A stretch of 7,789 nt of DNA from Deltaproteobacteria bacterium (GTDB lineage Bacteria > Desulfobacterota_B > Binatia > Binatales > Binataceae). Location of the stretch: positions 1 through 7,789 of the forward strand of contig JAKAVX010000107.1 in NCBI GenBank assembly GCA_021827465.1, read 5' to 3'. Below the pieces are notes generated by a model. That model was not told the origin of the DNA. It saw only the letters and a program-made list of their open reading frames with translations, and did no database searches. The stretch's first letter is position 1. Each line of letters opens with the position of its first letter. This document shows positions 2 through 7,789 of this stretch, piece after piece. A program made the position numbers and the translations under genes.

Positions 2-811
2 CTCGGCATCAAAACCGCGCTCCACGAAGCAAACACCGGGGTGGGTGTTGCCAACCGCTTCCTGGGCTCGATTGTGGACCGCGCCTATATCGGCTTCGAG
101 TCCGCCGCGCGTGAATTCCCGCCCGGGCGGGCTCACTTCACGGGAAACCCGGTTCGCCCCGAGGTGCTGGCGCTCCTTCACGAAGCGCGCAAGGCTCCTG
201 ACCGGTCGCGGGCTGCGCGGATTCTCGTAACCGGAGGATCGCTCGGATCGGCTTTCCTCAATCTGAACGTGCCCGGGCTTATCGAACTCCTGGGCGCTGC
301 GGGGCTTCGGGTCGAAGTGCGCCATCTGACTGGCCGCGGCCGGCGCGAAGATATGCCTGCGCTTTACCGGCGCGCGCGGGTCGAGGCCGTCGTGAGCGAA
401 TACGTGGAGGACATGACGCCCGCCTACCGATGGGCCGATTTCGCGATCACCTGCGCGGGGGCGGCCACGATGGCGGAGCTTGCGATCGCGGGGCTGCCCG
501 CTCTGTTCGTTCCGATGCGCGTCGCCGCGCGAAACCATCAACTCGACAATGCGATCGCGTTCACCAATGAAGGCGGCGGATGGTACGTCGAGGAGCATCG
601 ATGGTCTCCGGAAGCGCTCGCCGATCGGATCGCGGCGCTGCTGAGCGACGGCGAGGCCTGGCGCGCCGCGTCGAGCGCGATGCGCCGGATGGCCCGGCCG
701 TCGGCCGCGGACCTCATCGTCGCCGATTGCGAAGCGCTTCTCGGCGGCCAGCGTGCGGCGGCGTCGAACGGAGCCGCGGAGCCCGCGTCGGCGCCGCTCG
801 CCGGCCGCTAA
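2..811 (+). CDS. murG: MurG: undecaprenyl-PP-MurNAc-pentapeptide GlcNAc transferase, 5' end missing
   Basis: This is the C-terminal three quarters of a MurG-type GT28 glycosyltransferase, which adds GlcNAc to lipid I to make lipid II at the inner face of the cytoplasmic membrane. The frame is already open at base 2, so the true start lies upstream; the GTG at 41 is internal. Family landmarks in order: HEANTGVGVANR (like HEQNxxPGxANR), FTGNPVR near 138-155, ILVTGGSLGS at 221-250, the DM-AY-WAD stretch, AGAATMAELAIAGLPALFVP around 455-515, and HQLDNA at 536-553. The acidic residue of the nucleotide-sugar site is present (GAG at 476-478). Two changes stand out: GGSLGS where GGSQGA is usual, and Cys (452-454) where most MurGs have Arg before AGA. 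The last ~24 residues are Ala-rich and not conserved. A divergent MurG paralogue is possible. No dcw partner (murC) follows; the next gene is convergent. Confidence 0.88.
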   Translation, partial: LGIKTALHEANTGVGVANRFLGSIVDRAYIGFESAAREFPPGRAHFTGNPVRPEVLALLHEARKAPDRSRAARILVTGGSLGSAFLNLNVPGLIELLGAAGLRVEVRHLTGRGRREDMPALYRRARVEAVVSEYVEDMTPAYRWADFAITCAGAATMAELAIAGLPALFVPMRVAARNHQLDNAIAFTNEGGGWYVEEHRWSPEALADRIAALLSDGEAWRAASSAMRRMARPSAADLIVADCEALLGGQRAAASNGAAEPASAPLAGR

Positions 812-3857: not shown

Positions 3858-3875
3858 CCGGCCGCGCCATTTCGC

Positions 3876-3911
3876 AAAAAGGGCGGACCCGCGATTGCAA
3901 GTCCGCCCTTT
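3876..3911 (-). terminator. Intrinsic terminator of the secreted-protein gene
   Basis: AAAGGGCGGAC (3878-3888) pairs perfectly with GTCCGCCCTTT (3901-3911) across a 12-base loop. Read on the minus strand the GC-rich stem ends in a run of five T (3876-3880). It starts about 20 bases after the stop codon of the 3932-4741 gene, the right place and direction for Rho-independent termination. The oligo-A side also gives a short T run on the plus strand, so weak two-way action is possible. Confidence 0.8.
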
Positions 3912-3931
3912 GGAAAACAGAGCTGGCGGTT

Positions 3932-4741
3932 TCAGGGGACCGGGATTACAGGACAAACCGATTGGCTGACGTCCTTGGTTTCGAATTCAGGAGTTATGTC
4001 GATGCAGGAAGTGTCTTCGGTTTCGTTCTCGGCGGTCTCGTTCTCCGAGGGAAAACGCAGAGATCCCATCGTGATCGTGAGTGACGCGTTTCCGCCCGAC
4101 TCGAACGCGCACAGGCTTCCGTTGCCCTCGAGATGGAAGTACGCCTCGGTCCCGGTGTCGGGAACCGTGACCTCCATCGACACGCTCGACCCCAGAATTC
4201 TTCTACCGGGCGTAACGTACGGAACAAAGATGGTGCCGGCGACGTTGCCCTCGAAGGTGTAAATCGTCTTGTTCGGATTGCTGTGTACCATGAAGGAGTT
4301 ACCGGGCAACTCCGCAACAAAAGTTCCGGCTGGATTCGGGTTCGACGCGAGGGAATCGCATGATGCCGGAGCGAGTTTGACCGAAATCGGCTCGCTCGAA
4401 AGGTCGGTGCCGAAGTCGTTGTCGTCGAGGTTCAGTTTCGCGTTGAGATCGAACGAGTCGAGAAATTCCGAGGCATCAACGCAGCTTACCACGGAATCCG
4501 TGGAATTCGAGGCAGTCGTGTTTCCGCCTCCGCCGGAGAAGTAATTGAGAATCCCAAGGTCGCCCCGGCACGCGGTGGCGGTTTCGTGAGTGATCTCACT
4601 GTGGGCGCTGGCAATGTCGAAGTCCGAAGATGCGGCGGACACTGCCGGGACGCCAAAGCGATTTCTGATGCCGAGAGAAACGACGGCGACGGCCACGGAT
4701 GCCGCCAGGAACATAGGCGCGAGTTTCTTTATGCTTTTCAT
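3932..4741 (-). CDS. Secreted sequon-rich protein of unknown family, candidate N-glycosylation acceptor
   Basis: A 269-residue protein I do not recognise. It starts at ATG 4741 and the N-terminus looks like a Sec signal: basic MKSIKK, hydrophobic core ~7-25, then a polar stretch ending AVSA-A, with likely cleavage after Ala36. The mature part is acidic, rich in Ser/Thr/Gly, has six Cys (58, 87, 128, 211, 246, 263; possibly three disulfides), and from ~138 to 230 alternates polar and hydrophobic residues as in a beta-sandwich. Seven of its 17 Asn are in N-X-S/T (X not Pro): Asn74, 79, 157, 207, 218, 234 and 239; about 3.5 would be expected from its Ser/Thr content. Only Asn207 has the acidic -2 residue of the Campylobacter rule. 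Two 60-base stretches I counted inside it are 47% and 53% GC, against 67% in one from the next gene. It lies upstream of the oligosaccharyltransferase on the same strand but ends at its own terminator. There is no PEP-CTERM, LPXTG or lipobox. That it is a glycoprotein is inference. Confidence 0.72.
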   Translation of the reverse strand: MKSIKKLAPMFLAASVAVAVVSLGIRNRFGVPAVSAASSDFDIASAHSEITHETATACRGDLGILNYFSGGGGNTTASNSTDSVVSCVDASEFLDSFDLNAKLNLDDNDFGTDLSSEPISVKLAPASCDSLASNPNPAGTFVAELPGNSFMVHSNPNKTIYTFEGNVAGTIFVPYVTPGRRILGSSVSMEVTVPDTGTEAYFHLEGNGSLCAFESGGNASLTITMGSLRFPSENETAENETEDTSCIDITPEFETKDVSQSVCPVIPVP

Positions 4742-4957: not shown

Positions 4958-6361
4958 ATGCCCCGGGGTGGCGCTCGAAGAATGTTCAAACCGGTTGGCC
5001 TGCGCGTTCAATGGGCAATCCTGATGGCTGGCGACGCCGCGATCGCCTCGCTTGCCACATGCGCCGCATTCGCCGCCCGGCGTCCGATGCCGCCGCCGGC
5101 TCACTTCATTGCCGCCGCGCTTTTCTTCGTCGTTCTCTGGGTCGCTGCGATCTTCCTGCTCGATCTCTATCGGATCGAGCGCCCGCTCCCGAGCGAGGGC
5201 CAGCTCGTGTTCACCGTGATAGGGACGGCGAGCGTGGTCGGGATCGGAGCTGCGGTTGCAGGAGTTGTCATCCCCGGCCTCGATCTCGGGCGGCGCTTCG
5301 ATATCGCCTACCTGGGCGTCGGCGGATTCGTTCTTCTGCTGTGGCGGATATGGATGGAGGACGCTTTCTTGCGCCGGATCGACCTGGGCGTGATGATCGC
5401 CGGCAAGGACGATTACGCCAAGCTGATAGCGCACGAGGTCGCGCGCCGCAGACATATCGGCTACCGGCTGATCGGCTTCCTTGAGCATTCGCCCGACGCG
5501 ACGGCGCTTTCCAACGGTCGCGTTTGGGACGGCGCGACGCTTTACCAGGCCGGCTCGCTCGAGTTCTTGGTCGAAGTGCCCGGGCTCAGGAGCCTCGTGA
5601 TGGCGGATGACACGCGCGCGCAGTTCGCCGCTCAGGACGTGCGCTATGCCCAACGGCACGGAATCAAGGTTGCCGATTACGACTCGTTCTACGAACGGCT
5701 GACGGGGCGGCTCAACGTTTCGGCGCTTCGAAAAGCGCTACAGGCGCCGGCGCCTGGATTTGCGTGGCCGCGATGGCACGCAGTGTTCAAGCGGTTCGTC
5801 GACCTGGTTGCGACGTCATTGATAGGCCTTGCCGCGCTGCCGGTCGCGCTCGTGGCCGCGCTTGCGATCAAGCTCGACTCGCCGGGTCCCATCTTCTATG
5901 CACAGGAGCGCGTCGGGGTGGACGGCAGGACTTTCCGTCTCTACAAGTTCCGCTCGATGCGCATGAGCGGCAAGGATGACGCCGGGTCGACCTGGACGCG
6001 AGCCCATGATTCGCGCGTCACCCGGGTCGGGCGTTTCATCAGAAGGCGTCATATCGACGAACTGCCGCAACTGCTCAACGTGCTTAGGGGTGAAATGAGC
6101 CTGGTCGGGCCTCGGCCCCAGCATCCGAGTTGGGTCGAGCGGTTGGAGCGCGAGTTGCCGCTTTATAGCTTCCGCCATCTGGTCAAGCCGGGAGTCACCG
6201 GATGGGCGCAGGTCTGCTGCGGGTACGGCTCCACCGTGCGCGATCATACCGAGATGGCGTGCTACGACCTTTACTATCTGAAGAACTGGTCGCCCGCTTT
6301 CGACATGCAGATACTGCTGCAAACCGCAAAGGTGGTGTTCTTCGGCCGCGGAAGCCATTGA
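4958..6361 (+). CDS. Polyprenyl glycosylphosphotransferase (EpsB/WbaP-type initiating sugar-1-P transferase)
   Basis: Transfers a sugar-1-phosphate from a nucleotide sugar to undecaprenyl phosphate, the first step of a lipid-linked glycan, at the cytoplasmic face of the membrane. The 467 residues hold about four membrane helices (~17-40, 48-70, 82-106, 115-132), a Rossmann-like middle domain (~136-245) ending in the YDSFYERLTGRL stretch, and the bacterial sugar transferase domain (~275-467). The latter has KRFVD, a membrane helix with Pro295, SPGPIFYAQERVG, YKFRSM, the catalytic Asp367-Glu368 pair in DELPQLLNVLRGEMSLVGPRP, PGVTGWAQV and YDLYYLKNWS. The ending (WAQV-x-x-x-YG, KVVFFGRG) fits the EpsB_2 group often linked with exopolysaccharide/PEP-CTERM loci. 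Cys420-Cys421 after WAQV is unusual. ATG 4958 was chosen; ATG 4982 (Met9) is also possible, and neither has a strong ribosome site. It could serve the neighbouring oligosaccharyltransferase or an unrelated exopolysaccharide. The sugar cannot be told. Confidence 0.92.
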   Translation: MPRGGARRMFKPVGLRVQWAILMAGDAAIASLATCAAFAARRPMPPPAHFIAAALFFVVLWVAAIFLLDLYRIERPLPSEGQLVFTVIGTASVVGIGAAVAGVVIPGLDLGRRFDIAYLGVGGFVLLLWRIWMEDAFLRRIDLGVMIAGKDDYAKLIAHEVARRRHIGYRLIGFLEHSPDATALSNGRVWDGATLYQAGSLEFLVEVPGLRSLVMADDTRAQFAAQDVRYAQRHGIKVADYDSFYERLTGRLNVSALRKALQAPAPGFAWPRWHAVFKRFVDLVATSLIGLAALPVALVAALAIKLDSPGPIFYAQERVGVDGRTFRLYKFRSMRMSGKDDAGSTWTRAHDSRVTRVGRFIRRRHIDELPQLLNVLRGEMSLVGPRPQHPSWVERLERELPLYSFRHLVKPGVTGWAQVCCGYGSTVRDHTEMACYDLYYLKNWSPAFDMQILLQTAKVVFFGRGSH

Positions 6362-6472: not shown

Positions 6473-7789
6473 ATGGACACCGCCAGCATCCGGTCCCGCG
6501 TGAACACGCTTTGGGACGAATCGATCCTCGCCGAGCTCAAGGAATACATCCGCATCCCGAACAAGTCGGTCGCCTTTGATCCCGACTGGCGAACTCACGG
6601 CCACATGGACCTGGTCGTCGAGCGGTTTTCGCGATGGGCCCGCGCGCAGCAACTGCGTGGCATGACGGTCGAGGTCGTCAGGCTCGAAGGACGCACCCCG
6701 CTCATTTTCATCGAGATTCCCGGCGATTCCGACGAGGCCATCCTCCTCTACGGGCATCTCGACAAGCAGCCCGAGATGGCCGGATGGCGCGACGGACTCG
6801 ATCCCTGGCAGCCGGTGCTCGAAGGTGACCGCCTCTACGGGCGCGGAGCCGCCGACGACGGTTACGCCCTGTTCGCATGCATGGGCGCGCTCGGCGCGCT
6901 TCAGGTCGAAGGGATTCCGCACGCGCGATGTGTCGTCGTGATCGAGGCGTGCGAGGAGAGCGGCAGTTTCGACCTGCCCGCCTATATCGACCATCTTGCC
7001 CCGCGCATCGGCCAGGCCAATCTGGTGATCGCGCTCGACTCGGGATGCGGCAACTACGAGCAGCTATGGTCCACCACGTCGCTGCGCGGGCTGGCGGGCG
7101 GAACGCTCACGGTCACGGTGCTGACCGAGGGCGTACACTCGGGCGCGGCCGGCGGCGTGGTGCCGGAGAGTTTTCGAATCGCGCGCGCCCTCTTGGATCG
7201 AATCGAAGACAGCGTGACCGGCCGGATATTGCCGGCGGAATTTCACGTTGCAATACCGCTCGCGCGTCTCGAACAGGCCCAAGCCGCGGCCTCGACGCTG
7301 GGCGGCGCGATACGCGAGTTTCCTTTCGCTGGCTCGACGCATCCGGTCACGGACGAAGCCATCGAGCTTGTCCTGAACCGCACCTGGCGGCCCGCGCTTG
7401 CGATTATCGGCGCCGACGGACTGCCTCCGGCCGCCAATGCGGGCAACGTTCTGCGCCCGATGACGGCCCTCAAGCTGTCGCTCAGGCTTCCGCCCACCTG
7501 CGACGCAAAGGCGGCGTCGAGAAAGCTCAAAAAGATACTGGAGAGCGATCCACCCAACGGCGCGCAAGTAAGCTTCGCGCCGAACTGGGGCGCCGACGGA
7601 TGGGACGCGCCCCCGACTGCTCCGTGGCTCGAGCGCGCGCTCGACGAGGCGTCGCGCGCCTATTTCGGAAAACCCGCCGCCTACATGGGCGAGGGCGGGA
7701 CGATCCCGTTCATGGCGATGCTCGGCGAGCGTTTTCCCGAGGCGCAGTTCCTGATAACCGGCGTGCTCGGTCCCGGTTCAAACGCGCAC
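6473..7789 (+). CDS. M20-family metallopeptidase (dipeptidase-like), 3' end missing
   Basis: A cytosolic two-metal hydrolase of the M20 family (carnosinase/nonspecific dipeptidase, PepV, ArgE/DapE relatives), likely cleaving dipeptides or amide-linked amino acids. ATG 6473 is the start; an in-frame TGA at 6467-6469 excludes a much longer protein. The frame stays open for 439 codons to the window end. Active-site residues are all visible: His95 and Asp97 in YGHLDKQP, bridging Asp128 in GRGAADDG, catalytic Glu161 and metal Glu162 in EACEESGS, Asp189 in ALDSG, and the last metal His439 in GPGSNAH, the final codon of the window. The lid/dimer domain carries VHSGAAGG (His222), as in carnosinase-type dipeptidases, and SLRLPP. 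Relatives of about 450-480 residues suggest only a few dozen residues are missing. There is no signal peptide. The terminator-like hairpin upstream suggests a separate transcript; substrate specificity cannot be read. Confidence 0.93.
   Translation, partial: MDTASIRSRVNTLWDESILAELKEYIRIPNKSVAFDPDWRTHGHMDLVVERFSRWARAQQLRGMTVEVVRLEGRTPLIFIEIPGDSDEAILLYGHLDKQPEMAGWRDGLDPWQPVLEGDRLYGRGAADDGYALFACMGALGALQVEGIPHARCVVVIEACEESGSFDLPAYIDHLAPRIGQANLVIALDSGCGNYEQLWSTTSLRGLAGGTLTVTVLTEGVHSGAAGGVVPESFRIARALLDRIEDSVTGRILPAEFHVAIPLARLEQAQAAASTLGGAIREFPFAGSTHPVTDEAIELVLNRTWRPALAIIGADGLPPAANAGNVLRPMTALKLSLRLPPTCDAKAASRKLKKILESDPPNGAQVSFAPNWGADGWDAPPTAPWLERALDEASRAYFGKPAAYMGEGGTIPFMAMLGERFPEAQFLITGVLGPGSNAH

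Follow-up and report, generated by a model that had tools for sequence, protein, structure and literature searches.

Which proteins do the STT3-type oligosaccharyltransferases (OSTs) of bacteria modify? Apart from those of the Campylobacter group, only a few native N-glycoproteins of bacteria have been described, HmcA of Desulfovibrio gigas being an exception, which leaves little to show what these enzymes are for in most bacterial lineages. The question is posed in concrete form by a 7,789-nucleotide stretch of DNA from a Deltaproteobacteria bacterium of the family Binataceae (contig JAKAVX010000107.1; hereafter the window, meaning the whole stretch analysed), in which a gene for an STT3/PglB-type OST stands beside a gene for a small secreted protein rich in N-X-S/T sequons. 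An initial annotation of the window had proposed this protein as a candidate native glycoprotein. We conclude that it is probably a heavily N-glycosylated, exported β-sandwich, and a principal, but not the exclusive, acceptor of the more general STT3-type OST encoded next to it. As a small protein with several sequons, linked to the enzyme presumed to modify it, it offers an enzyme-acceptor case that can be tested directly.

Sequons in the secreted protein and its family

Seven of the 17 asparagines of the secreted protein lie in sequons (N74, N79, N157, N207, N218, N234 and N239). The initial annotation put this at about twice expectation, and shuffling of the sequence agrees, giving a mean of 3.3 sequons and at least seven in 2.9% of shuffles. 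A single protein at this level is too weak for a claim, since the WbaP-type protein encoded nearby, with two of its four asparagines in sequons, reaches 3.2% in the same test. The protein also has, as first described, six cysteines and no recognisable family; searches gave no Pfam match over cut-off and no listed NCBIfam match.

The relatives of the protein are more informative. A search with the single sequence returned three proteins, one of them the window protein itself, and a profile of these three returned 38 proteins of 134-277 residues, all unnamed or called 'hypothetical protein'. Removal of the window's own copy, three frameshifted-looking sequences and two partial ones, and addition of the window protein and of P0144, an outgroup taken from one of the genomes searched, gave an alignment of 34 sequences (A5). 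The six cysteines are invariant in all 34, and every member has between four and eight sequons; homologues lacking sequons, which would have told against a glycoprotein, were not found among them. With P0144 left out, 203 of the 619 asparagines of the remaining 33 members are in sequons, compared with ~102 by shuffling, and Ser or Thr occupies the +2 position from Asn in 34% of cases, compared with 11-26% at eleven other spacings.

Permutation of alignment columns provides a null that preserves column make-up and shared ancestry and breaks the +2 spacing. Under this null the 34 members, with 209 sequons, are well above the expected 107.5 (standard deviation 25), a count reached in 1 of 2000 global permutations, in none of 2000 local permutations over ~15 columns and in 1 of 2000 over ~8 columns. 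The excess is carried by N-X-T, with 148 occurrences against 50.5 expected (matched by none of 2000 global, none of 2000 15-column and 1 of 2000 8-column permutations), whereas N-X-S, at 61 against 57, is near chance (39% of permutations as high). The reversed motif falls below expectation (79 against 107), as do N-[ST] and N-xx-[ST]. When the family is reduced to 16 sequences non-redundant at 70%, there are 91 sequons against 47 and 57 N-X-T against 21, neither equalled in 5000 permutations, and 34 N-X-S against 26 (16% as high). PglB is described as working better on sites with Thr at +2, an advantage that is much larger in eukaryotes (PMC8479172), so that glycosylation would be expected to favour an excess made up of N-X-T.

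The OST provides a marked contrast. Three of its 32 asparagines are in sequons, the count originally reported, and taken singly it is at expectation (3.26). As a family, however, OSTs are depleted under the same null, with 51 sequons against 95 in 38 aligned sequences (A3; a count equalled or exceeded in 98% of 500 permutations), 11 N-X-T against 39, and 17 against 57 in the C-terminal part. This depletion, strongest for N-X-T, looks as if the enzymes avoided their own glycosylation. Among 32 secreted-like proteins, picked by a crude rule, from an OST-bearing relative (genome G433), N-X-T stands at 0.94 of expectation. A real acceptor would be expected to show just this combination, an excess across the candidate family (209 against 107) and depletion among the OSTs, and the idea of a native glycoprotein gains accordingly.

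A different expectation, that sequons would be conserved and other asparagines would not, fails. The columns of N166 and N207 hold the most conserved asparagines (33/33), yet form sequons in only 0/33 and 2/33 members, and the best kept sequon, N157, is present in 25/33. Conversely, the columns of residues 42 and 115, where the window protein has no sequon, carry one in 17/33 and 21/33 members, mostly as DFN[LI]T and LNQT. We therefore replace a pattern of conserved sites with one of conserved sequon number and positional turnover; selection on the number of glycans, and not on their exact places, would suggest a bulk role. The extended D/E-X-N-X-S/T sequon of Campylobacter jejuni PglB does not describe these sites, an acidic residue at -2 occurring at background frequency: in 50/209 sequon asparagines (24%), compared with 98/427 others (23%), and in one of the seven sequons of the window protein.

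What kind of protein carries these sites? AlphaFold2 predicts a β-sandwich both for the window protein (predicted local distance difference test score, pLDDT, 75; predicted template-modelling score, pTM, 0.70) and for the homologue P0011 (pLDDT 80, pTM 0.75), and the nearest structural matches make it Ig-like. Structure comparison gave no confident fold relative. In the model the seven sequon asparagines lie in loops or, in the case of N207, no more than two residues from a strand end. Alongside the invariant cysteines there is an export-like N-terminus, recognised from an A-x-A motif seen by eye and from its conservation, with a helix modelled at low confidence over residues 9-27. The database gene call (P0001, 260 residues) begins at Met10; the homologue P0002 favours Met1. 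The N-terminal 32 residues (window 4646-4741, minus strand) are more conserved than the remainder (71% versus 56% over 528 pairs of homologues), a feature that the outgroup P0144 does not share. To judge from these sequences, such conservation would be more than a plain cleaved signal peptide needs, and unusual for one.

We propose that the protein would be exported by Sec and would fold into a small Ig-like β-sandwich stabilised by disulphides, and that the neighbouring single-subunit OST would place N-linked oligosaccharides on several of its N-X-T, and perhaps N-X-S, sites, the modified sites lying in loops and near strand ends. The glycan would be assembled on a polyprenyl phosphate carrier, and the WbaP-type and GT28 transferases encoded alongside would plausibly help to build it. 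What selection would then maintain is the number of glycans, not their position, and their bulk role could be to keep an exposed protein soluble, to protect it or to coat it.

Association with the oligosaccharyltransferase

The OST has the STT3 N-terminal GT-C domain (PF02516, 81 bits against a cut-off of 24.5) and the motifs D159, SDND (277-280), TVAE (E425) and WWDYG (630-634). Across the 38 aligned OSTs, D159, D278, D280 and E425 are invariant and WWDYG is kept in at least 90%. These residues would be the counterparts of those of C. lari PglB. For PglB, PMC8479172 names residues D56 and E319 as well as the motif WWD. As a Campylobacter-type PglB equivalog the protein falls far short, scoring 23.9 bits on NF050801 against a cut-off of 1300.

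Does the pair recur elsewhere? The expectation that the secreted protein's gene would stay beside STT3 genes is borne out in part. A homologue and an OST are apparently co-located on three other contigs (P0003/P0045, P0034/P0047 and P0030/P0052), as judged from equal contig sizes (4473, 13271 and 16840 bases) and a shared source tag in two protein searches. These are three of the 12 homologue contigs longer than 4 kb, compared with 0.05 expected; the other nine match none among the clustered OSTs listed. The two genes would fill ~3.6 kb of the 4473-base contig and must therefore be near neighbours there. The OSTs of the three pairs belong to a clade well separated from the window OST, the common ancestor spanning 31 of the 38 tips. 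The C-terminal parts of P0030, P0034 and P0035 look frameshifted relative to the family, and two of the three are on contigs that appear to carry an OST.

The expectation does not hold at the scale of genomes. Among 148 genomes of the class, of unestablished completeness, a homologue occurs in one (G420) and PF02516 in 23, with no overlap; an OST of the window type occurs in 15. A sample of 395 genomes drawn from the phylum gave no homologue match. In G420 the homologue has gatB-like and CPBP-protease-like genes (named by eye) nearby, and ~1.4 kb from it is another exported-looking protein, 4 of whose 12 asparagines are in sequons (L142:3684-4412). Of 20 secreted-like proteins that have eight or more Asn, 5 reach one third of their asparagines in sequons; this set, in which gene calls are rough, includes the G420 homologue and the protein near it.

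Within the window the secreted gene is upstream of the OST gene on the same strand, at least 175 bp away, and a terminator-like hairpin intervenes (region 3870-3931, minus strand: -28.3 kcal/mol, z -3.73, with none of 200 shuffles as good), although a consensus terminator scan with a loop limit of 8 did not list it. The gap and the strong hairpin imply that the two genes probably do not form one simple operon.

Several observations weigh against our conclusion. The excess in the single protein is weak (p ~0.03). That of the family is smaller on the 202 columns with less than half gaps, at 168 against 100 sequons (1%) and 113 against 46 N-X-T (0.25%), and individual sites are not conserved. N-x-[ST] was gained independently 68 times, a modest lead over the 40-64 gains at other spacings, and the share of Thr among these gains is unremarkable. 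N-X-S in the secreted-like proteins of G433 is at 1.38 of expectation. As for linkage, the hairpin stands between the genes; 28 of the 31 OST clusters nearest that of the window (P0040-P0070) match no homologue contig among those listed, and P0040-P0042, at 86%, 70% and 59% identity to the window OST, are unmatched though on contigs of 12-31 kb. The G420 assembly, whose homologue has six sequons, has no STT3 over cut-off (best 16.7 bits), and G433, with the best-scoring OST among the genomes searched, has no homologue. This is the weakest link in the argument, in that the only genome-scale evidence separates the two genes.

Might the sequons then be incidental, the protein being an Asn-, Ser- and Thr-rich exported β-sandwich in which the N-x-T spacing follows from the layout of strands and turns, unglycosylated and only by chance a neighbour of the OST? 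The weak single-protein excess and the six-sequon homologue of G420 would fit such a protein, as would the frequent gains of N-[ST] pairs at +6 (64) and +4 (55) besides those at +2. What it leaves unexplained is that the excess is carried by N-X-T, whereas N-X-S, the reversed motif and the +1 and +3 spacings do not contribute to it; that it is absent from the OST family and, for N-X-T, from the secreted-like proteins of G433; and that linkage is apparently recurrent. We consider incidental sequons unlikely on these grounds.

At the opposite extreme, the OST could serve mainly this one protein, in the manner of HMW1C with HMW1 or of some PglL enzymes with pilins. The genes are adjacent in the window, appear to lie within 4.5 kb of each other on the P0003/P0045 contig and share a contig in two more cases, and neither the OST family nor the secreted-like proteins of G433 show any N-X-T excess. 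A dedicated pair of the HMW1C/HMW1 type would, however, occur together and not apart, and here G433 has the OST only and G420 the protein only, while none of the 23 genomes with PF02516 has a homologue; the hairpin likewise tells against it. Because homologue and PF02516 do not overlap in the 148 genomes, a 'dedicated' acceptor is unproven, and although possible it is improbable and not the explanation we favour. More remote still is a filament or coat subunit, in which the conserved hydrophobic N-terminus would be retained as an assembly helix, in the style of archaeal-type pilins, with the N-glycosylated β-sandwich as the outer surface; we think this very improbable. A principal but not exclusive acceptor of a more general OST continues to be the reading we prefer.

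Neighbouring genes and a possible glycan pathway

The features of the window are collected in Table 1.

Table 1. Position and identification of features in the window.
Feature	Position	Strand	Evidence and remarks
Secreted sequon-rich protein, 269 residues, 7 N-X-S/T, 6 Cys	3932..4741	-	open reading frame with ATG start
STT3/PglB-type oligosaccharyltransferase, up to 982 residues	808..3756	-	PF02516 E 1.7e-22; PF21436 E 7e-9
Terminator-like hairpin between the secreted and OST genes	3876..3911	-	GGGCGGAC...GTCCGCCC, then T-run
MurG-like GT28 glycosyltransferase, C-terminal part (cut by window end), convergent with OST	2..811	+	PF04101 E 9e-30
WbaP/EpsB-type polyprenyl-phosphate sugar-1-phosphate transferase, divergent from secreted gene	4958..6361	+	PF02397 E 9.9e-63; TIGR03025 over cut-off
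M20-family peptidase, runs off window, not considered to belong to the system	6473..7789	+	PF01546

Among 41 genomes of one family, the only close relative of the window GT28 enzyme is in G433 (48% identity; next best 37%), the genome that also has the best-scoring OST; G433 carries a second GT28 match at 32%. The G433 enzyme, itself over the NCBI murG cut-off, adjoins two GT4 enzymes and an ATP-binding cassette (ABC) transporter (locus L193:9799-15540, C14). The transporter scores best as MsbA and also as PglK, both below their cut-offs, and matches the solved PglK structure behind many ABCB-type transporters. The starts of the two GT4 proteins look ALG1- and ALG2-like, names that no tool returned. 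The locus is a candidate only for a eukaryote-like lipid-linked glycan pathway in a bacterium. At three further OST loci (L113, L114 and L116) a GT28 gene is again convergent with that of the OST, as seen by eye. An archaeal MurG- and Alg14/13-like enzyme is described as building the chitobiose of an N-glycan (PMC8993221), making a similar role for the window GT28 possible by analogy.

The M20 peptidase is 88% identical to a protein of G419, which belongs with G420 and G433 to one family. The M20-WbaP synteny is retained in G419, its contig (C335) ending inside WbaP (L178:11035-11559), just short of the place expected for the genes of the secreted protein and the OST. Genome G002 has two OST genes of the window type in tandem (L116/L127, C14:111309-116935), perhaps paralogues with different acceptors or glycans. 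Among the relatives of the OST, P0094 is named Candidatus Binataceae and P0063, 47% identical to the window OST, bears an acidobacterial name (Bryobacteraceae).

Comparison with known systems

More tentatively, these observations can be extended to a Binatia-like STT3-type system in which linked, Cys-rich β-sandwich acceptors have been selected for about six sequons, mostly N-X-T, at shifting sites, and the OST has been selected against N-X-T. Its glycan pathway may partly resemble the eukaryotic ALG pathway, and the system would be, as far as the literature searched goes, the first of STT3 type in bacteria to be recognised through a native principal acceptor encoded beside the enzyme. The results also suggest a route to native acceptors that uses sequence alone, namely to look for N-X-T in excess across a family, judged against a null that preserves relatedness, together with depletion in bystanders.

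The initial annotation held that a dedicated or principal acceptor encoded beside its enzyme would be unusual among bacterial N-glycosylation systems. Acceptor genes close to that of their enzyme do have bacterial precedents in HMW1/HMW1C (PMC3983070) and PglL/ComP (PMC3643930), albeit with enzymes that are not of STT3 type. In the HMW1C system, as described in PMC3983070, the gene for an N-glycosylation enzyme is likewise near that of an exported, multi-sequon acceptor. This contrasts with the window in that HMW1C is a GT41 enzyme adding hexoses in the cytoplasm with no lipid carrier, and HMW1 a large two-partner-secretion adhesin. PglL/TfpO enzymes, according to PMC3643930, resemble the window case in that an OST using a lipid carrier adjoins a small exported acceptor; pilin-like genes lie next to or near those of 21 of 31 PglL homologues, and ComP is demonstrated as a substrate. 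Their glycosylation is O-linked, however, and the enzyme family different, and the window protein has no pilin family match.

Other comparisons are with STT3-type systems. The relaxed PglB of D. gigas, a species whose HmcA is the native N-glycoprotein exception among bacteria, is, in the account of PMC4894442, a GT-C OST with WWDYG, like that of the window, and could likewise use sequons that have no acidic residue at -2, as in the window protein. In archaea, AglB modifies S-layer proteins, pilins and archaellins, exposed proteins subject to STT3-type N-glycosylation as the window protein may be, and the S-layers of Sulfolobus acidocaldarius are reported to be heavily N-glycosylated (PMC4287180, PMC5131992); these systems are archaeal, and the fold match of the window protein to them is weak and not specific. 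Unlike the known STT3, AglB and PglB single-subunit enzymes, the window OST is far under the NCBI PglB and archaeal STT3 cut-offs and has a candidate acceptor gene beside it. What is most likely new here, in comparison with all of these, is STT3-type N-glycosylation in which a native acceptor can be recognised and is encoded close to the enzyme.
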